A stretch of 12,433 nucleotides of DNA from Candidatus Avipropionibacterium avicola (GTDB taxonomy: Bacteria; Actinomycetota; Actinomycetes; Propionibacteriales; Propionibacteriaceae): contig DVLP01000071.1 in assembly GCA_018715445.1 (NCBI GenBank), forward strand, positions 1 to 12,433, written 5' to 3'. Positions 1 to 12,433 of the stretch are shown here, piece after piece. Below the pieces are notes generated by a model. It searched no databases. It was given only the letters and a program-made list of their open reading frames with translations, and had not been told where the DNA came from. The stretch's first letter is position 1. Each line of letters begins with the position of its first letter. The position numbers and the translations under genes are program-made.

Positions 1-1127
1 CGCCGAACAGCCAGGGCCCGAGCCCGGCCAGTAGGTAGCCGAATCCCTGCGCCATGGCCGACATCGTCCCGGTCAGCTGCACCGGGAAGGCGGTCGAGAT
101 CTTGGTCAGGGCGAAGGTCAACGAGGCCCCGATGGCCAGACCCAGGACGCAGACCCCGACGGCGGCAGCGACCAGGCCCCACGGCAGCAGGGCTGCGCCG
201 ATCACGTACCAGGCCCCGATCACCAGCAGCCCCGGTGTGGTGCGTCGACCCTGCAGGACGACCGGACCGGCCAGGTTGGACACGATCGAGGCGACCGACA
301 GCAGTGACAACAACCACCCTGCCGTGGTGGCGTCGATGCCGGCCGTCAGCATCACGGTCGGCCCCCAGGAGTGGATCGAGTAGAAGACCAGCGACTGCAG
401 GCCCATCAGCGCGGTCACCCCCCCAGGCCAGCGGGCTGGTCATCAGCTGGCGCAGGGCCGACTCACCGGACGGACCGGCCGTACGGCTGGTCACCAGCCC
501 TGCGGCGATCGCCAGGATCCACGCCACGACACAGATCGCGACCAGTGCAACCCACGGCAACTGTCCGCTGCGCCAGGTCCCGTTGACGGCATGGATGAAG
601 GGCCAGGTCAGCCCGGCGGCCAGCACCGAGCCACCACTGAGGGTGACGGCGTAGGCGCCGGTGATCAGCCCGATGCGATGGGCGAACCTCAGCCGGATCA
701 GCACCGGGACGGCGACATTGCCCGCCGCGACCCCGATGCCGACCGCGACCGTGCAGACGAAGAACGCGGTGACCCCGGGCAACAGGGCCCGGCCCAGCCC
801 ACCGAGGCCGAGCACCACCAGACCGATGGTGAGCAGGGTCGCAGGCGTGATGGTGCGCAGCAGCAGGGGACAGATCAGGGCGCCCAACCCGTAGCACATC
901 ACGGTCAGCGTGAGGGCGAACCCGGCCGTGGCGGCGCTGAGTCCCAGCTCGGCCTGGATCTGCGGCAGCACCGGTGAGACCGCCGAGATCACCGTGCGCA
1001 GGTTGCAGGCGACCAGCAACAGGCAGCACGCGGCGAGCACGCCCGTAGGCAGGCGGTGTCGCCCGGAGTTGTGGTGTGGGGTGTGGGGTGGCTGGGGGAT
1101 CGACCCATCGGCGGCGGCGCCGCTCAT
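1..1127 (-). pseudogene. CynX/NimT-like MFS transporter, frameshifted, 3' end outside the window
   Basis: This is a 12-helix major-facilitator transporter of the cyanate/2-nitroimidazole (CynX/NimT) type. Substrate cannot be told from sequence. After a polar N-terminus of about 27 residues, TM1 contains NLRTVISAVSPVLPQI, close to the NLRP..SVGPLLPEI signature of that family. Hydrophobic helices follow up to about residue 235. There a run of 7 G (plus-strand C run 418-424) breaks the frame. Reading with one G fewer restores a typical second half, starting VTALMGLQSLVFYSIHSWGP and continuing through GTMSAMAQGFGYLLAGLGPW at the edge. Read literally, the original frame stays open to the window end but becomes Arg/Pro/Gly-rich and non-membrane. 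The ATG (1125-1127) overlaps the stop of the upstream CPBP gene as ATGA, with AGGAAGG upstream as ribosome site. The gene could be a true pseudogene or an assembly/sequencing indel in a homopolymer. Family call is firm; broken status is uncertain. Confidence 0.85.
418..424. other. Homopolymer frameshift site in the MFS gene
   Basis: Seven consecutive C on the plus strand (G on the coding strand) begin within codon 235 (TGG) of the transporter. Six would give TGG GGG GTG ACC GCG CTG and keep the membrane-protein frame. Seven gives GGT GAC CGC and a nonsense-like composition. Homopolymers are common sites of sequencing error and of slippage. Confidence 0.85.
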
Positions 1128-2083
1128 GTGCCCTTCCTGCTCGTCCTGCCTCCGGCGAACCACCACAGCGCAACGGCCAGGACGGCCGGGGCGATCCAGC
1201 CGGTGACACCGATCGCGGTGCCCCAGACCGTGGCGTCGACCCAGGCGGGATCGCTCAGGCTCATCAGGACGGCCGAGGTGAAGGCGTTCATGACGGCATG
1301 GGCGACCACCGCCGGCCAGACCGAGCCGGAACGCATCCGCAGCCAGGCCAGCAGGGCCCCGTACACGGTGGTGAAGCCGCACATCAGCGGCAGACCGAGC
1401 ACCGGGTGGCCGTAGTTGTAACCGAGCAGGATCACCGGGGCGTGCCACAGGCCCCAGACCACACCGCCGATCACCAGGGCGACGACCTTGGGGGTTCGGG
1501 CCATCAGGGCGGGGTAGAGGAGTCCGCGCCAGCCGATCTCCTCACCGGTGGTGAAGATTGCGGTCAGGACGACCCCGAGGGTCAGGGCCTGGACCAGTTG
1601 GACCGCCACCAGGAAGGCCATCGGCGGCAGCTCGGTGCCGGGCGGGATGCCCTGGGCCTCGAGGAGTTGGGCGAAGGTCGCGAAGTTGACCAGGTCGGCC
1701 TGCCAGGTGCCGAACAGGGCTGACACCCAGAAACCGGCAGCCACCACGACCACCAGCAGCACCCAGGCCAACACCAGCCAGCCGAACCATCCCAGCACCG
1801 TACGGCGTTCGCCGTCGGCGCCGCGGGTGACGGCCAGCCCGAGTGAGACCAGGATCGGGGGATGGTCGCCGTCCCCGCGCCACCGCCGGCCCTCGACCCA
1901 CCGCAGGGCGATCAGCGCCGAGATCATCGGCGTCAGCATCATCACCTGGGCGCACAGTCCGAACCAGGGCGAGGTCAGGCCGCCGGTCAGCCAGGCCGGC
2001 AGGCACACCAGCCAGGCCAGCACGTACGCACCGACGACGAAGGCGACGACGGTACGGGTCCTCAGTGCCATCGTCGAGGTCAT
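1124..2083 (-). CDS. CPBP family intramembrane metalloprotease (CAAX-protease/Abi type)
   Basis: The product is a 319-aa polytopic membrane protein with the three motifs of the CPBP glutamic/metallo-type intramembrane protease family. These are EExxxR (E181, E182, R186, in GEEIGWRGLLYPAL), a W/FxxxH motif (WGLWH, H214), and HxxxN (H262, N266, in HAVMNAF). These residues form the putative catalytic site inside the bilayer. About seven or eight hydrophobic segments are visible, with the first at residues 11-32. Family members process prenylated or other membrane substrates, or act in bacteriocin immunity and regulation; the substrate here is unknown. The ATG at 2083 overlaps the stop of the upstream glutaredoxin-like gene as ATGA, and the stop overlaps the MFS start in the same way, so translation is probably coupled across three genes. 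A second Met at codon 5 is a possible alternative start. Pairing with an exporter could suggest export or immunity, but nothing in the sequence proves this. Confidence 0.93.
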   Translation of the reverse strand: MTSTMALRTRTVVAFVVGAYVLAWLVCLPAWLTGGLTSPWFGLCAQVMMLTPMISALIALRWVEGRRWRGDGDHPPILVSLGLAVTRGADGERRTVLGWFGWLVLAWVLLVVVVAAGFWVSALFGTWQADLVNFATFAQLLEAQGIPPGTELPPMAFLVAVQLVQALTLGVVLTAIFTTGEEIGWRGLLYPALMARTPKVVALVIGGVVWGLWHAPVILLGYNYGHPVLGLPLMCGFTTVYGALLAWLRMRSGSVWPAVVAHAVMNAFTSAVLMSLSDPAWVDATVWGTAIGVTGWIAPAVLAVALWWFAGGRTSRKGT

Positions 2084-2523
2084 CGCAGCTGCTCCAGTCG
2101 TTGGCGGACGAGCTCGGGCGGTGGGTTGGTGTGGGCCGTCCCGTCGATCACCACGGTGGGGACGGTCTCGTTGCCGTCATTGACGCTGCGGACGTAGTCC
2201 CTCCCCACCGGGTCCTTCCAGATGTTCACCCAGGTGGCGCGGCGTCCCGTCCGTCCCAGACGTGCCCGCAGCGCCGAGCAGTACATGCATCCCGGCCGCC
2301 AGTGGATCACCACCGGTGTGGCCCAGTCACCGTCCGCATCGCGTCCCCCGGGGTGGTCCGATCGGCTGCCGCGCAACGGAAAACGCCACCAGGCCGAGAC
2401 GAGGACGGCGACGGCGGCGATGACGTACCCGGCCCAGGCGCCGTCACCGACGCTCCAGGCCACCCAGCCCAACGCGAGGGCGATGACCAGGGTGATGCCG
2501 AGCCAACCCGCGACAGACTTCAT
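2080..2523 (-). CDS. Membrane-anchored glutaredoxin/mycoredoxin-like protein
   Basis: The 147-aa protein has two N-terminal hydrophobic segments (about residues 5-24 and 29-46) followed by a thioredoxin-fold glutaredoxin domain (about 68-147). The active site is a dithiol CxxC, C79-M-Y-C82, in WRPGCMYC. The glutathione/mycothiol-binding cis-proline motif TVP lies at 120-122, preceded by the NIWKDP and VRSVNDGNE segments seen in actinobacterial mycoredoxin-like proteins. Known members reduce mixed disulfides using low-molecular-weight thiols; in actinobacteria the thiol is mycothiol. Location would be the cytoplasmic face or membrane surface, and topology is not certain. Start is the ATG at 2523, with AGGA about 9 bases upstream. 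The gene lies 19 bp after the histidine phosphatase gene and overlaps the CPBP start by 4 bp. The Met in the CxxC loop differs from the more usual Pro or Gly. Confidence 0.88.
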   Translation of the reverse strand: MKSVAGWLGITLVIALALGWVAWSVGDGAWAGYVIAAVAVLVSAWWRFPLRGSRSDHPGGRDADGDWATPVVIHWRPGCMYCSALRARLGRTGRRATWVNIWKDPVGRDYVRSVNDGNETVPTVVIDGTAHTNPPPELVRQRLEQLR

Positions 2524-2542
2524 GGCTTCGATCCTGCCACGT

Positions 2543-3136
2543 TCACGGACGCCCGATCACACCGAACCCGGTCCAGCGCAGCTCGGGCGGCAGGTGACCG
2601 GTGTCGTTGAAGGCCACCAGCTCCGCACCGAGCGGACGGCGCTCGATGATGGTCAGCGCCGCGTTGGCACTGTTGAGGCTGAGCCAGCTGGCCGGCGGAG
2701 CACCGAGCGCCTCACGGACGAGCCAGGCAATCGGATAGGCGTGGGTGACCAGGACCTCATGCGTGTCACGACGGGTGGCTGACCCGAACCTGTCGGTCAG
2801 GGCACCGGCGAGGCGCCGCCCGCGACGGGCCTCGGCAGGGTCGAAGCCGTCGAAGAACTGACCGATCGAGGGCGGCATCTCCTTGGTGGGTGGGACATAC
2901 GGGATGTGGTCGATCAGCTCCTCCGCGACGTCGACCAGGGGGCGCCGAGGCAGTTGGGCTGCCATCAGGTCGGCGCTGACGGCCGCTCGCTCGAGCGGTG
3001 AGTGCCACACGACGTCGATCGGTGCGCTGGCCAGACGACGGCCGAGCAGCTCGGCCTGCCGGCGTCCACGGTCGGTGGGAGCTCCCAGGGCATCGGCCTC
3101 ACCATGACGCACCAGGTAGAGGTGTCGTACGGACAT
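2543..3136 (-). CDS. Histidine phosphatase superfamily protein (RHG/phosphoglycerate-mutase fold)
   Basis: The 197-aa protein belongs to the histidine phosphatase superfamily. The N-terminal LVRHGEAD carries the catalytic R10-H11-G12, where His11 would form the phospho-enzyme. SPLERA supplies the second phosphate-binding Arg (R50), an acidic residue is near E72-E73, and THAYP carries the second catalytic His (H132). Length and motifs fit small broad-substrate phosphatases, including SixA-like phosphohistidine phosphatases, but substrate cannot be read from the motifs. No signal peptide is present, so it is cytoplasmic. The ATG (3136) follows the stop of the PEP-synthase-like gene by 4 bp, with AAGGAG overlapping that junction, so the two are cotranscribed and probably translated together. 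This raises the possibility that it acts on a phosphohistidine of the upstream product (inference). Confidence 0.92.
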   Translation of the reverse strand: MSVRHLYLVRHGEADALGAPTDRGRRQAELLGRRLASAPIDVVWHSPLERAAVSADLMAAQLPRRPLVDVAEELIDHIPYVPPTKEMPPSIGQFFDGFDPAEARRGRRLAGALTDRFGSATRRDTHEVLVTHAYPIAWLVREALGAPPASWLSLNSANAALTIIERRPLGAELVAFNDTGHLPPELRWTGFGVIGRP

Positions 3137-3140
3137 CGGT

Positions 3141-4232
3141 TCACTCCTTGAGAGGTTGGACGATCCCGCGGGTGCCGTCGACGCTGATCCGGTCGCCTTC
3201 GACGATCCGAGACAGTGCCCCCGGCACCCCGAGGACGGCGGGGATGGCGGCCTCGCGGGCGACGATGGCGGCGTGGCTCAGGACCCCGCCGGTCTGGGTG
3301 ACGACCGCGGACACCATGCGCAGCAGGGGAGTCCAGGCCGGCGAGGTGTGGGCACAGACCAACACGTCTCCGGGTCGGACGCGGTCGAAGTCGGCGGGTC
3401 CGTGCACCAGGACGGCTCGACCGGTGGCCGTGCCCGGGCTTCCTGCTGCACCACGCAGGGTCTCGCGATCGGTGGCAACGGTCTCGACACTGGCCGGCAC
3501 GACGGCGGTGACCGGGCGGGACTGCAGCACCCAGATCTGGTTGCCGCTGATGGCCCACTCGATGTCCTGGGCCCGGCCCCGGACCTGCGCGATCCGACAG
3601 CCGAGCTCGGTCAGGGAGCGGATCTGGTCCCGGCGGAGGATCACTGCATCCTCGTGTGGGTCCGGACCACCGGCGAGCGAACCGTCCGGCAACACCCGCA
3701 GGTGCTGAGGCGTGACGGTGCCGTCGACCACACCGACCCCCAAGCCCGGCGTGCACTCGATGACGGTGTCGGCGTCCTCGGAGGTCGGGGTGAACAGCAC
3801 CCCGGCCACCTCGGCGTCGACCATGGCCTGGACCAGGACCGCCATCGGAGCGGGTGGGGTGGCGGTGCCGCGACGGGCCAGCGACCGCGGACCGTGTCGC
3901 GAGGCCAGGCAGGTGCGTACGGCGGCCAGGGTCGAGCCGGCGTCGGCCTCGACCTCGAGCACGGTGTCGTACTGGCCTGCGGCTGAGGTGTCGGTGGTGT
4001 CCTCGTCGGCGGCCGAGGACCGTACGGCGACCGCGGCGGCTCCCAGATCGGTCAGGGCACGGTCGACCACGCGATGCAGGTCGGCCGGGCCGTCCTCAGT
4101 GATCCCTTCGGTGACGTCGTACGGGATCACGAAGCCCGCGGGCACCGCGAAGCCCCGGCGGTGCAGGGCGGCCAAGGTGGCCGCCTTGGTGCCACTGGTC
4201 GCCACGGTCGCGTGCGGCAGGGGGATCAACAC
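3141..4232 (-). CDS. Short PEP/pyruvate-dikinase-like protein: ATP-grasp domain plus phosphohistidine swivel domain
   Basis: The 363-aa protein has two recognisable parts. Residues 1 to about 245 are the PEP/pyruvate-binding ATP-grasp domain of PEP synthases. It shows SGTKAATLA near K16, VRSSAADEDT (R71), AGQYDTVLEV, MVDAEVAGVLFTP, and QDIEWAI leading to WVLQSRPVT. Residues from about 258 to 363 are the PEP-utilising mobile domain, with the catalytic histidine H320 in TQTGGVLSHAAIVARE, followed by IPAVLGV. In full-length PEP synthase or pyruvate phosphate dikinase, ATP phosphorylates this His, which then transfers phosphate to a third domain. Here both the C-terminal TIM barrel and the internal substrate domain of rifampin phosphotransferases are missing. 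The acceptor must therefore be separate or the role may be regulatory. Start is GTG at 4232, with a TGAGG ribosome-site candidate. It is first in a probable five-gene operon and divergent from two HTH genes. Confidence 0.9.
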   Translation of the reverse strand: MLIPLPHATVATSGTKAATLAALHRRGFAVPAGFVIPYDVTEGITEDGPADLHRVVDRALTDLGAAAVAVRSSAADEDTTDTSAAGQYDTVLEVEADAGSTLAAVRTCLASRHGPRSLARRGTATPPAPMAVLVQAMVDAEVAGVLFTPTSEDADTVIECTPGLGVGVVDGTVTPQHLRVLPDGSLAGGPDPHEDAVILRRDQIRSLTELGCRIAQVRGRAQDIEWAISGNQIWVLQSRPVTAVVPASVETVATDRETLRGAAGSPGTATGRAVLVHGPADFDRVRPGDVLVCAHTSPAWTPLLRMVSAVVTQTGGVLSHAAIVAREAAIPAVLGVPGALSRIVEGDRISVDGTRGIVQPLKE

Positions 4233-4238
4233 AGAGCC

Positions 4239-4267
4239 TCAACAAATGATTGACAACAATGTGTTGA
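4239..4267. promoter_or_regulatory. Candidate operator: imperfect inverted repeat over the promoter
   Basis: TCAACAAAT (4239-4247) and its mirrored partner ATGTGTTGA (4259-4267) match at 8 of 9 positions, six of them the contiguous outer TCAACA/TGTTGA. The repeat covers the -35 and most of the spacer of the rightward promoter, as expected for an autoregulatory repressor site. One of the two adjacent HTH proteins is the natural candidate binder (inference). Confidence 0.45.
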
Positions 4268-4278
4268 TTGTGGATCAT
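4250..4278 (+). promoter_or_regulatory. Sigma-70-type promoter for the HTH gene, probably leaderless
   Basis: A consensus -35 TTGACA (4250-4255) is followed by exactly 17 bp and a -10-like GATCAT (4273-4278, four of six matches). Only 6 bases separate the -10 from the ATG at 4285, so transcription should begin at or next to the start codon. No Shine-Dalgarno sequence precedes that ATG, which fits a leaderless mRNA, common in actinobacteria. Confidence 0.6.
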
Positions 4279-4284
4279 CGTGCC

Positions 4285-4665
4285 ATGACACGCAAGCCAT
4301 CGGGCAACGGTCCCGAGCAGCAGGCGGCCGACGCGGAGCAGCAGGCCCGTGAGCATCTCGCCGGGATCGGTGCCACCGCCATCGGCCCGCAGCCGTGGCG
4401 GCCGTCGCCCATGCCCGCGACAGCGACCGATCTGGTCCAGTACGCGGTGTGGCGCTCGGCGGACCTGTCCGCGGAGGATCTGGTGCAGGCAGCCAGTCTG
4501 CTGCCAGCCGCCCGTGCCGAGGTCGACGGACTCGAAGCCGGGCTGCTGTTCGCAGCCCGCAGCGCTGGTGCCACCTGGGCCGAGCTCGCCGAGGCCATGG
4601 GGTTCAACTCACCGCAGGCCTGTCAGCAGCACTTCGCCCGACTCAACGAACGGGCGAGCCGGTGA
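4285..4665 (+). CDS. Small helix-turn-helix protein, unknown target
   Basis: The 126-aa protein has a Gln/Glu/Ala-rich N-terminus (about residues 8-27), a Pro-rich linker (about 35-46) and a C-terminal helical region. The stretch from about residue 95, GATWAELAEAMGFNSPQACQ, looks like the helix-turn-helix of an actinobacterial family in which a WAELAEALG-type helix precedes a SRQAAxQRF-like recognition helix. It is followed by HFARLNERAS at the C-terminus. Function is probably DNA binding; partner and target are unknown. Start is the ATG at 4285, chosen because the -10 box lies only 6 bases upstream and the upstream frame reads through promoter sequence. The gene ends in a 4-bp GTGA overlap with the next gene, so the two products are probably made together. 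Confidence 0.75.
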   Translation: MTRKPSGNGPEQQAADAEQQAREHLAGIGATAIGPQPWRPSPMPATATDLVQYAVWRSADLSAEDLVQAASLLPAARAEVDGLEAGLLFAARSAGATWAELAEAMGFNSPQACQQHFARLNERASR

Positions 4666-5285
4666 GTCACCGTTCGAGCCCTGAGCTGCTCGTGCTCCAC
4701 GCCGTCAGGATCCTCGGCTTCGCCCCGACCACGTCGATCGCGCACCGCTACGACCTGACCATCCCGATCACCGAGGAAGTGCTGGGCGACGACGAGGCGA
4801 GGGGCTGGGTCACCAGGTCGACCTTTGCCGAGCTGACGGGCTGGAGCCTCACCGACTCTGGACGTCAGGAGAACGAGCGTCGGCTCCGGGTCGAGCGTGA
4901 CCTCGTCGATCCGGGCGCCCGTCTCTCGCCGCTCCATGGCCAGTTCCGGGGACTGAACGCCCGACTGTTGCGAGCCGTCACCGACTGGCAGTTGTACGCC
5001 GTTGACGGTCGCTTGGTCCCCAACGACCACAGCAATGTCGGACGGGACGCCGCAACCCTGGACGAGTTGGCGGCCATCGCCGACGGGCTGAGGGAGCTCC
5101 AGGTGGGCCTGTCCCGGTTGTTGTCCCGCTTCGACGGTTACCACCCTCGCTTCGTCGCAGCCCTGGGGCGGGCCCGAGCAGGAGCACCCGCCTTCGTGGA
5201 CCGGACCGATGTCGATTCCTGCCACCGGGTGTGGTTCGAGCTGCACGAGGACCTGATCGCCACGCTCGGACTCACCCGCGACTGA
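4662..5285 (+). CDS. Winged-helix-like protein, conserved hypothetical
   Basis: The 207-aa soluble protein has no signal or membrane segment. The N-terminal third looks like a winged helix. LVLHAVRILGFAPTTSIA (about 10-27) resembles two recognition helices, and GWVTRSTFAELTGWSLTDSG (48-67) resembles the wing with its typical WxLTxxGR ending. The rest is helical, with conspicuous clusters NARLLRAVTDWQL (99-111), PNDHSN (120-125) and RTDVDSCHRVWFELHEDLIA (181-200), the last rich in potential ligand or metal residues (D, C, H, H). The GTG start at 4662 overlaps the preceding stop (GTGA). Longer in-frame extensions to the left would overlap the HTH gene and are unlikely. A link with PEP-utilising enzymes is suggested only by the divergent neighbour. 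Exact function is unrecognised. Confidence 0.75.
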   Translation: MSHRSSPELLVLHAVRILGFAPTTSIAHRYDLTIPITEEVLGDDEARGWVTRSTFAELTGWSLTDSGRQENERRLRVERDLVDPGARLSPLHGQFRGLNARLLRAVTDWQLYAVDGRLVPNDHSNVGRDAATLDELAAIADGLRELQVGLSRLLSRFDGYHPRFVAALGRARAGAPAFVDRTDVDSCHRVWFELHEDLIATLGLTRD

Positions 5286-5301
5286 GCTCAGCTCCACCGG
5301 A

Positions 5302-6126
5302 TCACTGCCTGGCATAGAGACCGAAGCCGTCCCAGGCGACCCAGCCGCCCTCGGCCAGCACGAGCTCGACGATGTTCGCCCCGGGCTGGATGATGTCGGC
5401 CGGCAGCTCCCGCTCGATCGCGGCGCGCTGCATGAGGCTGCCGTGACGGGTGGCGTCGCCGTCACGCGAACCCAGGGTCGCACCCTTGGGGATCTCGATC
5501 TCCAGTGCCGTGTCGCCGTTCACGATGACGTCGAGTCGACCACCCAGTCGCGTGGTGTCGACGAACCACAGGGCGATGTCGCAGACCGAGCTGGGATCCT
5601 CAGCCTCGACCTCCCAGCGGATGCGGTAGGCCTTCCTGCCCGCCCAGCTGTCGCCCGGACCCGGAAGCAGATAAGGACAATCGGCGGCCTGCGCATCGGC
5701 GGGGAGCTCGATCACCCCATCTGGATGATCGGTCGGGATCTTCGCGTAGGCGGCAGGGGAGTGCTGGAACTCCAGGCTCTTGCCGTCGAACTCACCGAGC
5801 GAGCCGAGCCGGCGACCGGTCGCGCTGACAGAGGCCACCGAGTCCAGGGTGAGCGGCTCACTGGGGCGCCCGATGTCGCCGGCATCGGTCACCGCCGAGA
5901 CCGTGTAGGTCCACCGTTCCCCGGCGGGATCGACATCGTGGTGGGTGAGTCGGGGGAAGACCGTCTTGCCGACCAACTGCGTCTTGGAGGGGCGTCGGCC
6001 ACCGCGCGTGGCGTTGATCCGGTAGTGGTCGATCAGCGGGTCGAAGCCGGCCGAGGTCCAGGTCAGCTCGGTACGGCCCAGGGCAGGCTCGGCGGTCAGA
6101 CCGCGCACCTGAGGGGGGTTGCTCAT
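5302..6126 (-). CDS. Fibronectin type III plus jelly-roll-like domain protein
   Basis: The 274-aa protein has a probable N-terminal fibronectin type III domain (about 4-97), with PPQVRGLTAEPALGRTELTW, DHYRINATRGG and WTYTVSAVTDAGDIGRPSEP as the expected strands. A C-terminal beta-rich region (about 137-274) ends NIVELVLAEGGWVAWDGFGL. This resembles the carbohydrate-binding-like domain III of family 4 polysaccharide lyases, though no lyase catalytic domain is present. The protein is acidic, and no signal peptide, Tat motif or transmembrane segment is visible, odd for such domains. Start is the ATG at 6126 with AGGAG 7 bases upstream, 12 bp after the PhoD-like stop, so the two form an operon. 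A role as a binding accessory to the exported phosphatase is possible but unproven. The 16-bp gap to the convergent plus-strand gene holds no obvious terminator. Confidence 0.75.
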   Translation of the reverse strand: MSNPPQVRGLTAEPALGRTELTWTSAGFDPLIDHYRINATRGGRRPSKTQLVGKTVFPRLTHHDVDPAGERWTYTVSAVTDAGDIGRPSEPLTLDSVASVSATGRRLGSLGEFDGKSLEFQHSPAAYAKIPTDHPDGVIELPADAQAADCPYLLPGPGDSWAGRKAYRIRWEVEAEDPSSVCDIALWFVDTTRLGGRLDVIVNGDTALEIEIPKGATLGSRDGDATRHGSLMQRAAIERELPADIIQPGANIVELVLAEGGWVAWDGFGLYARQ

Positions 6127-6138
6127 TCGGATCTCCTG

Positions 6139-7716
6139 TCAGAGCGGACGCAGGGTCGCGGTGTCGACATCGGTGACGAATCGGGCCCCGAGCTCCTTGG
6201 GGGCGGTGTCATCGGCCTCGATCCACGGCACCGTCCAGAAGGTCGAGGTCATGGCGTCGGGGGTCAGCGTGACGTGGACGTAGCCGCGACGTCCGTCGTA
6301 CATCTTGACGTAGTCATGGGCGAGCCAGTCATCCTGCAGCCCGTCCTCCTTCTCGGTGTCGCCGTTCGAGGCGATCGAGCTGCACACCAGCTCCACCCCG
6401 ACGTTGGGACCGTCCGGATCGTCGAAGTCGGCCTTGAGCTCGGAGGCGACATGGCGATGGATGTCACCGGACAGCATCACCGCGTTGCGGCTGCGGCCCA
6501 TCGAGGCCAGGACGCGGCGTCGGTTGGCCGGGTAGCCGTCCCACATCTCCGTCCTGTCGTCGGTGACCGCGGTGAAGACCACCCCGTTGCCGAGGATGTT
6601 CCACAGGGCGTCGGATTCCTCGAGTCGCTCGGTCACCCAGGCCTCTTGCTCGGCGCCCAGGATCGTGCGGTCCTCCGATTGCTGGTCCTCGTCCGAGGTC
6701 GGCGCCGGATCGCGGAACTGACGACAGTCCAGCAAGGAGAACCGTGCCAAACCGCCGACGTCCACCCCGGCATTGATGTGGGACTCCGGGCCGTCGGGGA
6801 TCGCGGACACCTCGAGCGGCATGTGCTCGTAGAAAGCGCGGTAGGCCACCGCCATCCGGTGGACGAAGAGTTCGTCGCTGATGCCGGTGGTCGACACCTT
6901 CCCGCCGTAGTTGTTCTCGACCTCGTGGTCGTCCCACACCGCGATCGCAGGTGCCCGACGATGGACCGCTTGGAGGTGGGGATCGCTCTTGAACAGTCCG
7001 TACCGCAGGCGGTACTGCTCCAGGGTCTCGATCGTGACCGTGTGGGGCTCGGCCACCTCGACGCCCTGACGCCACAGGTTGGCCTCGGTGATCCCGTACT
7101 CGTAGATGTAGTCGCCGAGGAAGACCACCAGGTCGAGGTCCTCCTCCTGCGCGAGATGCTTGTGGGCCGTGAAATGTCCGTGGTACCAGGCCTGGCAGGA
7201 CGCGGTGGCGAAGCTGAAGGACTCGGGGATCTCACCGGGCGCCGGCAAGGTGGTGAAGCGTCCCACCGGGCTGGTCTGGTCTCCGACGGTGAAGCGGTAG
7301 AAGTACGCCGTCGACGGGTCGAGGCCCTTGACCCGCGGATGCACGGTGTGGGCCAGTTCCGCGGTCGCCAGTGCCTCGCCGTCGGCGACCACCGTGTCGA
7401 ACGACTCGTCGGTGGCCACCTCCCACTTCACCCCGACCGCACCGCGGGCCATCCCGCCGTGACCGTCCTCGGCCATCGGATCCGGGGCGAGCCTGGTCCA
7501 CAGCACCAGACCGTCGTGGCGCGGTGCGCCGGAGGCCACCCCGAGAGCGAACAAGCCGTCCGGCAGATCGCCCACCGGTGCCGCAGTGGCACCCGGTGCG
7601 TCAATGCCCAGCGCCAGGACGGTGCCGGTGACCCCGGCCAGTCCGAGCAGGGCACGCCGTGACACCGGTAGCCCGGCAGCAGCGGGCGAGGACGGAGTCG
7701 TCTGAGGTCGGGGCAT
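6139..7716 (-). CDS. PhoD-family alkaline phosphatase/phosphodiesterase, Tat-exported
   Basis: The 525-aa protein begins with a twin-arginine signal (SRRALLGLAG, R20-R21), a hydrophobic stretch and a cleavage region near GATAA (42-46). It should fold in the cytoplasm with metals bound and be exported. The PhoD N-terminal beta domain follows (FALGVASGAPRHDGLVLWTR). The metallophosphatase domain shows FATASCQA (C174, iron ligand position in PhoD), DLVVFLGDYIYEYG (D202), AVWDDHEVENNYGG (262-265) and LSGDIHRH (417-422). Known PhoD enzymes use Fe3+ and Ca2+ to release phosphate from mono- and diesters, often under phosphate starvation. Two ATGs stand in tandem (7719 and 7716). GGAGG is 3 bases before the first and 6 before the second, so the second is preferred. 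No clear PHO-box direct repeat is visible in the 46-50 bp upstream. Confidence 0.95.
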   Translation of the reverse strand: MPRPQTTPSSPAAAGLPVSRRALLGLAGVTGTVLALGIDAPGATAAPVGDLPDGLFALGVASGAPRHDGLVLWTRLAPDPMAEDGHGGMARGAVGVKWEVATDESFDTVVADGEALATAELAHTVHPRVKGLDPSTAYFYRFTVGDQTSPVGRFTTLPAPGEIPESFSFATASCQAWYHGHFTAHKHLAQEEDLDLVVFLGDYIYEYGITEANLWRQGVEVAEPHTVTIETLEQYRLRYGLFKSDPHLQAVHRRAPAIAVWDDHEVENNYGGKVSTTGISDELFVHRMAVAYRAFYEHMPLEVSAIPDGPESHINAGVDVGGLARFSLLDCRQFRDPAPTSDEDQQSEDRTILGAEQEAWVTERLEESDALWNILGNGVVFTAVTDDRTEMWDGYPANRRRVLASMGRSRNAVMLSGDIHRHVASELKADFDDPDGPNVGVELVCSSIASNGDTEKEDGLQDDWLAHDYVKMYDGRRGYVHVTLTPDAMTSTFWTVPWIEADDTAPKELGARFVTDVDTATLRPL

Positions 7717-7753
7717 CATGGTCCTCCATTGGATGGGCAGGCTCTTGACCCTA

Positions 7754-7767
7754 GACGACTCCTCGTC
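7754..7767. repeat. Short hairpin at the end of the TldE gene
   Basis: GACGA-CTCC-TCGTC is a perfect 5-bp inverted repeat with a 4-base loop. It overlaps the TldE stop codon (7766-7768) and sits in the gap before the PhoD-like gene. There is no T tract after it on the coding strand, so it is at best a weak attenuator or RNA-stability element. Confidence 0.3.
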
Positions 7768-9169
7768 AGGATGCCCGCGAAACCGTGGACATGTTGAAAT
7801 CCGGGATGCGCAGGGTCGGCATCGCCGTACGGGTGAACCAGTCGTTCCACTCACGGGGCAGCACGATCTCGGTGCGCGAGGCCTCGGTCGCACGACGCAG
7901 CAGGTCCAACGGGGACTCGTTGAACCGGAAGTTGTTGACGCTGCCGACCACCTCGCCGCCTTCGACGAGATGGACCCCGTCGCGGGTCAGGCCGGTCAGC
8001 AGGAGCGTCTCCGGGTCGACCTCGCGGATGTACCACAGGCAGGTGAGCAGCAGTCCGCGGTCGGTGGCGGCGACCATCTCGTCGAGCGTGGTGGTGGCAC
8101 CGGTGTCGAGGATCAGGTTGTCGATCTCGGGATGGGCGCCGCGCCCGGAGACCTGCCCCACCGAACGCGAGGCCAGCAGTTCGTTGACCACCCCGTCACG
8201 GATCCAGTCGGTCGGATCCAGGTCGGCCCCGTTGTCGAAGACCGACGAGATCCCTTCGGAGGAGCTCGCACTGACCACGAAGGGCGAGGCCTCCAACCCG
8301 GGATGGTCGGGGTCGGAGAACAATCGGTACGGCAAGGTCCCGAGTCGTTCACCGATCCGGGTCCGACCTCCGGGAAGGCTGTAGGCATTGCGACCTTCGG
8401 AGGCGTCACGCCAGCCCGCGCCCCAGTGGGCAGGGATCATCAGGTCGGCCACCGCCGACGGTGGCAGCAGCGTCTCGTACCGGCCGGCGGGCAGCTCGAT
8501 CTGACGCTCCGTCCAGCCGTACCGGGTCACCAGCTCCGGCCACAGGGCACTGACGTCGACATCACTGAAGTCACGGGTCGCCCGACCCAGCCAGACCGAC
8601 CGCTTCATGGCGCGGTCCTTGGCGTTGAGCTCGAGTCGACCGGTGGGCTGGACGTGGCGGCGCCGGATCCCGTTGCTGGTCCCGAGCCATGTGGTGGTGC
8701 AGATGTGCTCGACGAAGCCGAAGGTGGACAGATCGGCCGACTCCGCCTGGGAGAAGACCTCACCGAGATCGGCGGCCACTCGGGAGAGGACCTCGATCGA
8801 GGTGCCCTCGGCTGCGGATGAGAAGTCCGCATCCTGGCAGGCATCGACCAGATCCATGGTGTCCTCGGCTGCCGGGGCGGCCTCGGCGGCCCGCTCGGCC
8901 GAGCGCAGCAGGGCCAGTGCGTCGCCTCCGGAGGTGATCCGTCCCGACACGGTCCCACAGTGTGCGCCGTCGTCGCTGCGGCGGATCGCCACCACCGACA
9001 GGCTGCGGTCGTGCATCTGCCCGTTCGTGGTCAGCGCATTGTGGGCCCACCGCAGGTTGGCCTGCCCGGTCTCGGTCACGATGACCACGCACTCGTCGCT
9101 GCGTGAGGCTGCCATCAGCTCCTCGACGAGATCACTCGAGGCGATGGTGGTGCTGTCGAGGGTGCTCAT
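7766..9169 (-). CDS. tldE: TldE/PmbA-like protein, non-catalytic partner of TldD
   Basis: The 467-aa protein belongs to the TldD/PmbA (U62) family. It lacks the HExxxH metal-binding motif present in its neighbour, as expected for the TldE subunit of the heterodimeric protease. Conserved stretches near the C-terminus include NLILDTGATTTLDEMV, LLLTCLWYIREVDPETLLLT and GEVVGSVNNFRFNESPLDLL, typical of the domain that closes over the shared proteolytic chamber. In E. coli TldD/E removes leader peptides from modified peptides such as microcin B17 and degrades unfolded peptides. It is cytoplasmic with no signal peptide. The ATG at 9169 shares one base with the TldD stop (TGATG), with GGGGAG just upstream, so translation is coupled and equal dosage is likely. 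A much longer open frame extends leftward into tldD on this strand, but its composition is that of a shadow reading. Confidence 0.9.
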   Translation of the reverse strand: MSTLDSTTIASSDLVEELMAASRSDECVVIVTETGQANLRWAHNALTTNGQMHDRSLSVVAIRRSDDGAHCGTVSGRITSGGDALALLRSAERAAEAAPAAEDTMDLVDACQDADFSSAAEGTSIEVLSRVAADLGEVFSQAESADLSTFGFVEHICTTTWLGTSNGIRRRHVQPTGRLELNAKDRAMKRSVWLGRATRDFSDVDVSALWPELVTRYGWTERQIELPAGRYETLLPPSAVADLMIPAHWGAGWRDASEGRNAYSLPGGRTRIGERLGTLPYRLFSDPDHPGLEASPFVVSASSSEGISSVFDNGADLDPTDWIRDGVVNELLASRSVGQVSGRGAHPEIDNLILDTGATTTLDEMVAATDRGLLLTCLWYIREVDPETLLLTGLTRDGVHLVEGGEVVGSVNNFRFNESPLDLLRRATEASRTEIVLPREWNDWFTRTAMPTLRIPDFNMSTVSRAS

Positions 9170-10686
9170 CAGTTCTCCCCTTCGGCCAAGGTGTTGAGGA
9201 CGTTGACACCGCGGAAGACGGCGCTCGGGCAGCCATGGCTCACCGGGGCGACCTGACCCGGTTGGCCCTTGCCACAGTTGAAGGCCCCGCCGAGGACCCA
9301 GGTGTCGGGACCGCCCACCGCCTCCATCGATCCCCAGAAGTCGGTGGTGGTGGCCTGGTAGGCGACGTCGCGGACCTGACCGACGATCCGCCCACCCACG
9401 ATCCGGTGGAACCGCTGACCGGTGAACTGGAAGTTGTAGCGCTGCATGTCGATCGACCACGACTTGTCGCCGACGACGTACAACCCGTCCTCGACCGAGG
9501 AGATCAGCTCGTCGGTCGACGGGCCGGAAGGCTCGGCCAGCAAGGACACATTCGGCATCCGCTGCATCGGGATGTGACCCGAGGAGTCCGCGAAGGCACA
9601 CCCGTTGGACCGGTCCAGTCCCCGGGCGGCCGCCATCTGCCGGTTGAGCTGGTAGCCGACCAGGGTGCCGTTGCTGATCAGGTCGAACTCCTGACCGGAG
9701 ACACCCTCGTCGTCGAAGGCCACCGTGGCCAGGCCGTGGTCGACGGTCCGGTCCCCGGTGACGTTCATCACCGGGGATCCGTAGGCGAGCGTGCCCAGCT
9801 GGTCGACCGTGGCGAAGGAGGTGCCGGCGTAGGCGGCCTCGTAGCCCAGGGCCCGGTCCAGCTCGGTGGCATGGCCGATGGACTCGTGGATGGTCAGCCA
9901 CAGGTTCGACGGGTCGATCACCAGGTCGAGCGTGCCGGCCTCGACCGAGGGTGCCTTGACGTGTTCGGCCAACAGCTCGGGCAACTCGGCGACCTCGGCG
10001 TCGAAGTCCCACCCGGTGCCGGTGCAGTACTCCCAGCCCCGACCGGTCGGCGGCGCCAGGGTCCGCATCGTCGAGAAACCTTCCCCCACAGCGATCGCGG
10101 TCAGCTCGGGGTGGATGCGGACGCGTTGCTGCGTGGTGTCGGTGCCGTGGGAGTCGGCATAGAACTTGCACTCGTCGACGTAGTGGACCCGGGCCTGGGT
10201 GTGCGTGACGCCGTCGGCGGCCAGCAGCCGCTCCGACAGGTCGATCCATCGGCCCTGACGCTCGTGGTCGTCGACCTCGAACGGGTTCACCTCGTGCGGC
10301 GAGACCCACGTGGCACCAGCATGGCGGGGTTCGTCGGCCAGGGTGACCTCGGGTCCGGGCAGTCGGGCGGCGACCTCCGCGGTCGCCACGGCCTGCTCGG
10401 CCAGTCGGGCTGCTGCGTCGGTGGTGAGACTGACCCCTGCGGCGAATCCCCAGGCTCCACGGTGGACGACCCGGACGCTGATGCCCAGGTCGGTGCTGTC
10501 GGTCTGTGACTCGACGGCCACATCCCTGAGGCTCAGGACGCCTTCGCGGATCCGCTCGATCCGTACGTCGGCATGGCTGGCGCCGAGCTCTTGGGCACGG
10601 CTCAACGCAGCATCGGCGAGCGTGTGGAGCGGCAGCGCGGTGAAGTCGGGCGCCACGCAGCGCCCGGGGTTGGTGGACGTGACCAT
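9169..10686 (-). CDS. tldD: TldD-like metalloprotease subunit
   Basis: The 505-aa protein is the catalytic member of the TldD/TldE pair. The zinc site is HExxxH in [20 protein letters not shown] (H267, H272 in this numbering), completed by a distal cysteine (C471) in [20 protein letters not shown], matching the His-His-Cys ligand set known for TldD. The N-terminal domain begins about residue 20 with [19 protein letters not shown]. Known function is cleavage of peptides threaded into the TldD/E chamber, including leader removal from modified peptides. The ATG at 10686 is preferred over the in-frame GTG at 10710. Neither has a good ribosome site, but a TAGAGT -10-like box ends 7 bases before the ATG, which would give a near-leaderless mRNA. 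It is divergent from hisF. Confidence 0.92.
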
Positions 10687-10766
10687 GGCAGGGACTCTAT
10701 CGGCTGACACTACGATGGGGCGTCAGTCCGGGGAGCACAGCGATCCCCGTGGGAATGGAGGTTGCG
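10687..10766. promoter_or_regulatory. Divergent intergenic region between tldD and hisF
   Basis: This 80-bp gap must hold promoters in both directions. On the minus strand TAGAGT (10699 down to 10694) lies 7 bases before the tldD ATG and can serve as a -10 box, with no good -35 at 17-18 bp. On the plus strand TACGAT (10711-10716) is a possible -10 for hisF, again without a consensus -35. No operator-like palindrome stands out. Confidence 0.4.
10757..10761 (+). promoter_or_regulatory. Ribosome binding site that fixes the hisF start
   Basis: GGAGG lies 5 bases before the GTG at 10767. It shows that this GTG, and not the upstream in-frame GTG (10749) or ATG (10755), is the start. The encoded [12 protein letters not shown] also aligns with the usual HisF N-terminus. 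Confidence 0.8.
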
Positions 10767-11549
10767 GTGAGTCTTGCCATCCGGGTGATCCCGTGTCTGG
10801 ACGTCCACGACGGGCGGGTCGTCAAGGGGGTCAACTTCACCCAGCTGCGTGATGCCGGTGACCCGGTCGAACTGGCGGCGGCCTACGACGCGGCCGGGGC
10901 CGACGAGCTCACCTTCCTCGACATCTCGGCCTCCTTCGAGGGCCGCGAGACCACCCGGGACGTGGTCGGTCGGACCGCGGAGACCGTCTTCATCCCCCTC
11001 ACGGTCGGGGGAGGGGTGAGCAGTGCTGACGACGTCGACGCCTTGCTGCGGGCCGGCGCGGACAAGGCCGCCATCAACACCTCGGCCGTCCATCGTCCCG
11101 AGGTCATCACCGAGATCACCCGTCGGTTCGGCAACCAAGTCCTGGTGCTGTCGGTCGATGCCCGTCGCGAGCCGGACCAGCCCTCCGGCTTCGGCGTGAC
11201 CACCCACGGTGGGCGCAAGTCGGCCGACCTGGACGCCTTGGAGTGGGCCCGTCGTGGCGTCGAGCTCGGGGTGGGGGAGATCCTGCTCAACTCGATGGAT
11301 GCCGATGGCACCACGGCCGGCTTCGACGTCGAGATGATTGCGGCGATGCGCCAGGTGGTCGACGTCCCGTTGATCGCCTCCGGTGGGGCCGGCAAGGCCG
11401 AGGACTTCGTGGCCGCCGTGGACGCCGGCGCCGATGCAGTGCTGGCCGCCAGCGTGTTCCACTTTGGTACCTTGAGCATCGCCGAGGTGAAGCACGCCCT
11501 CGCCGCGGCCGGACATCCCGTACGGCTGCCCACGACACAGGAGAACTGA
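10767..11549 (+). CDS. hisF: Imidazole glycerol phosphate synthase subunit HisF (cyclase)
   Basis: HisF is the cyclase half of the HisH/HisF amidotransferase in histidine biosynthesis. It uses ammonia made by HisH to convert PRFAR into imidazole glycerol phosphate and AICAR, in the cytoplasm. The 260-aa (beta/alpha)8 barrel has the catalytic aspartates D12 (RVIPCLDV) and D131 (VLSVDARR). Phosphate-binding elements are also present: LTVGGGVSS (78-86), AAINTSA (101-107) and PLIASGGAG (201-209). The start is GTG with GGAGG 5 bases upstream. HisH, HisA/PriA and HisI are not in the window; instead the gene is coupled through TGATG to a D-2-hydroxyacid dehydrogenase. Length is normal, with a short C-terminal tail (VRLPTTQEN). 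Confidence 0.97.
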
Positions 11550-12433
11550 TGCTGGCTTGGCTCCCGTACGCCGACGAGGACGAGCTCGTCTCGCGCATCG
11601 GACCGCTTCCTGACGGTGTCGAGTTTGAGCCGGTCGACCGGCATCAGCCCAACGGCCCCTCGATCGACCGGGTCGAGTTCTTCGTGCTGCCGTACCTGAC
11701 CGGGGCCAACTCCCTGGACCGGATCGCGGAGATGTCCTCGCTGCAGGTCGTGCAGACCCAGACGGCCGGTTTCGAGAACGTCATCGACCTGATCCCCGAT
11801 CCGGTCACGCTGTGCAACGGCGCCGGGATCCATGACACCGCCACCGCGGAGATGGCCCTGGCCCTGGCGCTGGCCAATGCCCGCCATGTCGACGTCTACG
11901 CCCGCAACCAGACCTCCGGCACCTGGAAGCCCCACTGGGGGTCCTCCCTGGCCGACCAGCGCATCACGATCCTGGGCTACGGCCGGATCGGCAAGGCCAT
12001 CGAGGCCAGGGTCGCCGGCTTCGAGCCGGCCTCGATCACCAAGGTGGCCAGCCGGGCCCGTGACGACATCCACGGCATCGACGAGCTCGCCGAGCTGTTG
12101 CCCCGCACCGACGTGCTCTTCGTGATCGCGCCGTTGACCCCGCAGACCGAGGGACTGCTGGACGCCGCCGCCCTGGCACTGCTGCCCGACAACGCCCTGG
12201 TGGTCAACGTGGCCCGCGGCAAGATCATCGACACCGACGCACTGGTGGCCGAGACCACCTCGGGCCGACTGCGCGCCGCCCTCGACGTGACCGATCCCGA
12301 ACCGCTGCCGCAGGACCATCCGCTGTGGACCATCCCCGGGGTGACCATCTCGCCCCATGTCGGTGGGGCCAGCAGCGCCTTCCACCCCCGTACCGACGCC
12401 CTGATCAAGGCACAGCTGCACCGCTGGGCCACG
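11549..12433 (+). CDS. D-isomer-specific 2-hydroxyacid dehydrogenase, 3' end outside the window
   Basis: The 295 residues present cover almost the whole of a D-2-hydroxyacid dehydrogenase, which interconverts a 2-hydroxyacid and a 2-ketoacid with NAD(P)H. The nucleotide-binding motif GYGRIG (143-148) is clear. The catalytic set is R223 (NVARGKIIDTDAL), E251 (DVTDPEPLPQDHPLW) and H270 (ISPHVGGAS). At the end of the second Rossmann strand, where NAD-specific enzymes carry an acidic residue, the sequence reads KVASRAR. A Ser-Arg pair suggests NADPH preference (inference). Substrate (glyoxylate/hydroxypyruvate, phosphoglycerate or another) cannot be assigned. The ATG shares its A with the hisF stop (TGATG), with AGGAG 5 bases upstream, so translation is coupled to hisF. 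The stop codon lies beyond the right edge. Confidence 0.92.
   Translation, partial: MLAWLPYADEDELVSRIGPLPDGVEFEPVDRHQPNGPSIDRVEFFVLPYLTGANSLDRIAEMSSLQVVQTQTAGFENVIDLIPDPVTLCNGAGIHDTATAEMALALALANARHVDVYARNQTSGTWKPHWGSSLADQRITILGYGRIGKAIEARVAGFEPASITKVASRARDDIHGIDELAELLPRTDVLFVIAPLTPQTEGLLDAAALALLPDNALVVNVARGKIIDTDALVAETTSGRLRAALDVTDPEPLPQDHPLWTIPGVTISPHVGGASSAFHPRTDALIKAQLHRWAT

Follow-up and report, generated by a model that had tools for sequence, protein, structure and literature searches.

Phosphoenolpyruvate (PEP) synthase and pyruvate phosphate dikinase combine an ATP-grasp domain with a swivel domain carrying a histidine, and PEP synthase has in addition a C-terminal PEP/pyruvate barrel. 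In phenylphosphate synthase, the PEP-synthase-like parts are split over several chains that work with accessory proteins, while in PRD-type regulators of the phosphotransferase system (PTS) a histidine phosphocarrier acts on a helical regulator domain with a conserved histidine. PGAM5, a member of the histidine phosphatase superfamily, acts on phosphohistidine. Here, we describe a locus that resembles each of these systems in part or in concept, located on a stretch of 12,433 nucleotides from the actinobacterium Candidatus Avipropionibacterium avicola (contig DVLP01000071.1 of assembly GCA_018715445.1, positions 1 to 12,433; hereafter the window). It encodes a dikinase-like protein (DIK), a putative phosphatase with an RHG motif (RHG), a helix-turn-helix protein (HTH) and a winged-helix protein (WH). 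The four genes are a conserved, recurring actinobacterial unit that reflects more than chance. The sequence features can be read as a module in which an ATP-charged histidine swivel would act in trans with WH, be discharged by RHG and be controlled by HTH, a tentative reading to which we give slightly less than an even chance. The features of the locus are as follows.

3141 to 4232, minus strand: DIK, 363 amino acids, GTG start; ATP-grasp domain at about residues 1-247, swivel at residues 256-358
3273 to 3275, minus strand: codon of H320 of DIK, the swivel histidine and expected phosphoryl carrier (coordinates computed from the gene start)
2543 to 3136, minus strand: RHG, histidine-phosphatase superfamily, branch 1, with R10 H11 G12, R50, E73 and H132
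4285 to 4665, plus strand: HTH, 126 amino acids, with a C-terminal tri-helical HTH and a near-invariant SPQACQQ
4662 to 5285, plus strand: WH, 207 amino acids, winged helix at residues 1-87 and helical domain at residues 88-206
4233 to 4284: control region of 52 bp shared by DIK and HTH, which point away from each other
4239 to 4267: tandem operator, TCAACAAATGATTGA at 4239-4253 and ACAACAATGTGTTGA at 4253-4267
4250 to 4278, plus strand: promoter-like pair TTGACA-17-GATCAT ahead of HTH-WH; overlaps with the operator

The RHG gene lies 4 bp downstream of DIK on the same strand, and the HTH and WH genes, which overlap by 4 bp, are divergent from this pair across the shared control region. A preliminary description had already reported this arrangement, together with the ATP-grasp part and the swivel histidine of DIK, and all of these elements were recovered. 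The protein superfamilies themselves are already known; the WH family has no Pfam or NCBIfam model.

The conservation of the unit was examined in three sets of WH loci. For the order set, WH was sought in 57 genomes, mostly of the same family or order, and was found in 16 of them; 17 loci were taken, the window excluded. For the named loci, a scan of genome contigs with the WH alignment confirmed at least 584 stretches, and the best 80, ranked by WH similarity, were kept. The class draw covered 296 genomes, including that of the window, of which 66 gave a WH match with E no higher than 1e-3; the 56 loci taken represent nearly all of the stronger places. Five places at E below 1e-20 (G073 twice, G220, G137:C101 and G086:C114) and most of the weaker ones are not among them. 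Class-wide searches scored 10 (WH) or 6 (DIK) candidates per genome. Genes were called as stop-to-stop open reading frames (ORFs) for which BLAST with the window or plasmid-type queries gave an E of 1e-4 or lower, and distant HTH or RHG proteins may escape this procedure.

A dikinase or swivel match was found near WH in most of the loci taken. Among the 80 named loci, DIK was matched within 1 kb in 79, HTH in 75 and RHG in 64, and all four genes were present in 59. These loci belong to Nonomuraea, Microbispora, Streptosporangium, Cellulomonas, Oerskovia, Promicromonospora, Rhodococcus, Nocardia, Nesterenkonia, Brevibacterium, Corynebacterium, Kribbella, Micromonospora and others. The order set had a dikinase match within 3.5 kb in 14 of 17 loci, HTH in 14 and RHG in 5. 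Of the 56 class-draw loci, 49 had a DIK or PPDK-type match within 3.5 kb, 15 matched RHG and 10 matched HTH; every one of the ten HTH-bearing loci also matched DIK and RHG. These counts support a conserved co-occurrence of the four genes, for which the preliminary description had proposed a search. It had also named the reverse case, in which DIK would occur without its partners in most relatives; within the candidates scored, a DIK profile run over the 296 genomes did not show this, as all nine full-length two-domain matches listed at E below 1e-130 adjoin a WH place. The next matches, from E 6.8e-98, are frames of about 760-1030 codons and thus as long as PEP synthase or rifampin phosphotransferase (Rph); in this list the DIK proteins of the window and of G163 are each split into two matches, and many of the shorter frames lower down match the ATP-grasp part only.

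These numbers have to be read with the composition of the sets in mind. The named and class-draw sets overlap, with at least three contigs probably common to both, and related loci are not independent, so that a Fisher value for these counts is descriptive only. Three loci (L066, L138 and L144) end near the genes, so a missing gene there means little. Some gene matches are partial, such as RHG residues 1-52 in L131 and DIK residues 62-243 in L118, and a DIK match may represent the swivel part only (L131, L135, L137, L140, L143 and L202) or a PEP-utilising protein.

DIK matches two Pfam families only, PPDK_N (PF01326; E 5.7e-41, 141.3 bits, cut-off 27) and the PEP-utilizers swivel (PF00391; E 2.4e-25, 88.3 bits, cut-off 23.1; residues 286-356), in which H320 sits in GGVLSHAAIVARE. 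No PEP/pyruvate barrel or other acceptor domain was found in DIK, and the chain stops at residue 363. The residues K16, R71, D78, E225, Q237 and R239, which we take to be the ATP-site residues of the family, are all present and, like H320, invariant in 20 of 20 alignment rows (window included); H320 is likewise present in 93 of the 94 rows of a larger alignment. Judged by these residues, DIK can probably carry phosphate on histidine. Its best solved match is the PEP synthase 8a8e (E 6.3e-43), but the alignment stops at residue 480 of 817, and in contrast to PEP synthase, DIK lacks the C-terminal barrel and ends right after the swivel. The PEP synthase model TIGR01418 accordingly reaches 198.2 against a cut-off of 739.75. 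Charging by PEP, which the preliminary description had offered next to charging by ATP, is unlikely because the barrel is absent.

A second relative is 5fbs, listed in the PDB as a PEP synthase and presumably Rph, whose ATP-grasp and histidine domains align to DIK. The middle substrate domain of Rph is missing, however, as residues 247 and 256 of DIK align to 319 and 762 of 5fbs, and the Rph equivalog NF041857 scores 179.8 on DIK against a cut-off of 999. The missing domain and the low equivalog score make simple Rph-type rifamycin resistance unlikely. A search of the window for the rifamycin-associated element, with a query motif that may be inexact, gave no match at up to three mismatches. 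Compared with phenylphosphate synthase and related split phosphotransferases, in which the PEP-synthase-like parts are on separate chains, DIK differs in joining ATP-grasp and swivel in one chain, and its accessory proteins would be WH, RHG and HTH.

WH has no Pfam or NCBIfam match at E up to 1. In the predicted structure, its N-terminal 87 residues form a winged helix of the MarR/AspA-like type, a fold shared with the MarR family; the helical C-terminal domain of about 120 residues lies outside the structure match and was barely covered by the search, and no MarR Pfam family is matched. This C-terminal domain (residues 88-206) contains the near-invariant residues W109, Q110, Y160, S186, H188, W191 and H195. 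Over 154 WH rows, H188 is replaced once (by Q, in the orphan locus L067) and unaligned once, in the frame-broken L231, which is also the only row in which H195 is unaligned. The 80 named loci had been selected with the peptide pattern W[FMI][EQ]LHEDL, which fixes H195 to L198 by construction; only the order set and the class draw are therefore informative on the conservation of H195. Within one group of close relatives, conservation is 0.75 for the C-terminal domain and 0.60 for the recognition helix, the least conserved part of WH, as compared to 0.84 for the recognition helix of HTH.

Several gene arrangements connect WH with swivel proteins. In five Promicromonospora loci (L131, L135, L137, L140 and L143) and in L202, no ATP-grasp match was found and a lone small ORF with the swivel motif is located beside WH; the five Promicromonospora loci also match RHG (in L131 only over residues 1-52). 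Rhodococcus opacus B4 encodes a 793-amino-acid protein in which residues 57-108 match the swivel (34.1 bits, cut-off 23.1) and residues 606-788 resemble WH (32% identity), and L194 and L195 each contain one long ORF that is alike to this fusion over most of its length. A link between a dikinase and RHG is seen in a single case, L201, where a stop-free frame of 929 amino acids comprises a PPDK-type dikinase, a low-complexity stretch and an RHG phosphatase. On plasmids, 20 records contained a WH match and seven of these were inspected; WH relatives adjoin an annotated pyruvate phosphate dikinase in Rhodococcus sp. ZPP, Diaphorobacter, Streptomyces atratus and Mycobacterium avium. The scanned dikinases of Rhodococcus sp. 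ZPP, Streptomyces and R. pyridinivorans (the latter 5 kb from WH) contain PPDK_N and the swivel without a barrel.

RHG matches His_Phos_1 (E 3.2e-21) and contains the RHG motif at R10, H11 and G12 as well as the second catalytic histidine H132; H11 and H132 are each kept in 69 of 70 rows. The preliminary description had compared the protein with SixA, which belongs to the same superfamily and has the RHG motif in common with it. This comparison is not supported, as the SixA model TIGR00249 requires 74.5 and scores 21.5 on RHG. Among solved structures, PGAM5 (3mxo; E 3.2e-17) is the closest relative, aligned over residues 3-185, so that by sequence RHG resembles PGAM5 more than SixA. The similarity to PGAM5 is near full-length; RHG differs in being a bacterial, putative phosphatase whose gene adjoins that of a swivel protein. 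The interpretation of the preliminary description is supported in part: the catalytic residues of DIK and RHG are conserved, and the phosphohistidine theme gains support from the lone swivels, the WH-swivel fusion and the dikinase-RHG ORF. The parts that referred to PEP and to SixA are not supported.

The HTH protein has three Pfam matches, all below their cut-offs (the best being LexA_DNA_bind with 18.6 against 23.7 bits), and searching structures with a model of HTH yielded nothing at E below 1. The operator site ACAACAATGTGTTGA holds the perfect inverted repeat CAACA-ATG-TGTTG, and seven upstream regions align around TCAACAnnnnGTTGACAACnnnnnGTTGA. When 98 regions were searched for TTGACAACN5GTTGA, the best match had no mismatch in 64 regions, one in 19, two in 3 and three to six in 12; thus, 83 of 98 regions have at most one mismatch, as compared to none of 490 single-base shuffles with fewer than three. 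The region of L062 was misplaced in this search and is covered by a rescan around WH. In the rescan, which allowed up to two mismatches, the operator was present in 98 of 99 loci with HTH (order set 14/14, named 74/75, class draw 10/10), but in only 1 of 54 loci without an HTH match (order set 0/3, named 0/5, class draw 1/46). The operator tracks HTH and not WH, and WH is an unlikely reader of this conserved operator because the site is absent from 53 of the 54 WH loci without an HTH match. The two DNA-binding-like proteins of the preliminary description are both present, but they are not equivalent: the operator goes with HTH, and the conserved part of WH is its C-terminal domain. In the window's own genome, one exact operator site and one further site with one mismatch were found, and the 33 sites at up to two mismatches are no excess over the 45 in a reversed control, so a wider HTH regulon is not supported. 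From its association with the operator and the lack of excess sites, HTH is the likely operator binder and its regulon is probably local. The six bases between GATCAT, the -10-like element, and the ATG of HTH suggest that the HTH-WH transcript is leaderless. In Promicromonospora, the HTH gene and its operator are missing from L131, L135, L140 and L143. These four loci have another upstream stretch in common, which includes GATGCACGGTGC and may be bound by a different regulator; in the row of L137, the region is not the same.

From these data, the following sequence of events can be proposed. The ATP-grasp domain of DIK would bind ATP and phosphorylate H320 of the swivel, as suggested by the intact motifs. 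The charged swivel would then act in trans on WH, whose C-terminal domain would serve as docking site and possibly also accept the phosphoryl group, the candidate residues for this being H188 and H195; the adjacency of the genes, the lone swivels and the fusion point to such an action. WH might then read the charge state in a manner similar to PTS-controlled regulators. The PGAM5-like RHG would take the phosphate off the swivel or off WH and make the state reversible, while HTH would bind the tandem TCAAC-N5-GTTGA operator that overlaps the HTH-WH promoter and repress its own operon and probably also DIK-RHG. The resemblance to PRD-type PTS regulators is one of concept, i.e., a phosphocarrier acting on a helical domain with a conserved histidine; unlike in these systems, the carrier would be a PEP-synthase-type swivel and not HPr, and no PRD domain was matched by the window WH (Pfam, E up to 1) or found among the matches of five WH relatives. 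The final phosphoryl acceptor may be WH or a small molecule.

A small-molecule acceptor is the basis of a close rival explanation, a split phosphotransferase similar to Rph or to phenylphosphate synthase, in which the acceptor part would belong to another chain. DIK would charge its swivel from ATP for transfer to an alcohol, phenol or antibiotic-like substrate on the WH C-terminal domain or on another protein, RHG would reverse the transfer or hydrolyse the product, and HTH would sense and derepress. We regard this as possible, although less likely than not. It would explain why DIK matches the ATP-grasp and histidine domains of Rph with the substrate domain between them missing, and it agrees with the conserved polar residue set in the WH C-terminal domain and with the location of WH relatives and dikinase-type proteins near aldehyde/alcohol dehydrogenases, P450 and CoA ligases. 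The N-terminus of WH, however, is of the DNA-binding type, and the polar residues of its C-terminal domain are alike in four-gene loci and in catabolic neighbourhoods, which would be unexpected if the substrates differed. Because these residues recur across differing neighbourhoods, the domain would rather meet the common swivel than a variable substrate, and their recurrence favours the switch. A weaker point against the rival is that the recurrent neighbours outside the module are generic: a clustering over the 97 order-set and named loci, read by eye and filled largely with antisense ORFs, gave ABC-transporter ATPases in 24 loci, response regulators in 12 and MFS transporters in 11. Two further explanations were considered. 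WH could be an ordinary MarR-like, ligand-responsive regulator and DIK a metabolic enzyme that share no more than a regulon, with no phosphotransfer between proteins, which appears improbable given the fusion of WH to a swivel protein, the lone swivels beside WH, the poorly conserved recognition helix of WH and the association of the operator with HTH instead. That DIK is the degenerate remnant of a PEP synthase with chance neighbours would agree with the absent barrel and with a broken copy in a congener, but this is rejected as very improbable because the catalytic residues are conserved and the layout recurs across many genera.

Several observations weigh against an ATP-charged swivel that acts with WH and is reset by RHG. 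Two of the genes are often unmatched: RHG has no match in 16 of the 80 named loci, in 12 of the 17 loci of the order set and in 41 of the 56 class-draw loci, and HTH has none in 46 of the 56 class-draw loci. As they are so often unmatched, RHG and HTH would be accessory in the wider WH family. All seven Kribbella loci are among the 16 named loci without an RHG match, and one of these seven (L144) ends near the expected place of the gene. In the class draw, seven WH loci have no dikinase match, of which L194 and L195 contain the fused ORFs, leaving five (L200, L206, L230, L231 and L232) with neither; H188 and H195 are kept without a dikinase match in L200, L206, L230 and L232 and also in L058 and L128. 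In the window's congener G001, the module is split: HTH, WH and the operator (L058) are on one contig, while on another (L254, 2106-3927) all that is left of the dikinase is a match of 47 residues inside an otherwise different ORF, directly followed by RHG. A further histidine of WH is H123, for which at least seven rows have another residue or no aligned position. Finally, several plasmid WH neighbourhoods are catabolic, with P450, CoA ligases and PEP-utilising enzymes, and these settings fit a small-molecule phosphotransferase equally well.

If the proposed action of the charged swivel on WH is true, some actinobacterial proteins that are annotated as PEP/pyruvate-binding or as pyruvate phosphate dikinase would not be dikinases but ATP-charged histidine carriers with a dedicated protein partner, and a function would be assigned to a winged-helix family of hundreds of members (at least 584 stretches) that has no Pfam model. 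In its most general form, the proposal would add a further kind of histidine phosphorelay to two-component systems and the PTS, controlling gene expression in many actinobacteria, in which PEP-synthase-type swivels, free or joined to an ATP-grasp domain, phosphorylate or dock on the helical domain of the WH family and are reset by PGAM5-like phosphatases; this generalization we consider conceivable but unlikely. The defined operator that comes with the module offers a handle for testing.

A known anti-phage defence system is unlikely for the four proteins, as PADLOC models gave no family for DIK, RHG, HTH or WH at E up to 0.01. No tRNA and no Rfam RNA were detected in the window. On the RHG side of the locus, a mycoredoxin-like protein is encoded on the minus strand at 2080-2523 (TIGR02200, 71.6 bits, below the cut-off of 89.5), and its gene overlaps by 4 bp with that of a CPBP-type intramembrane protease at 1124-2083. 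A minus-strand, transporter-like coding region at 1-1130, identified by eye, consists of two overlapping frames (ORFs 3-1448 and 2-418), and the frame changes close to seven consecutive C at 418-424, reflecting an assembly error or a broken gene. Beyond WH, the minus strand encodes a PhoD-type alkaline phosphatase and then a protein whose carbohydrate-binding-like match is weak (PF14683, under the cut-off) at 5302-7719, followed at 7766-10710 by neighbouring TldE/TldD-type metalloprotease genes, which are divergent from a HisF-like gene (assigned by eye) at 10749-11549.

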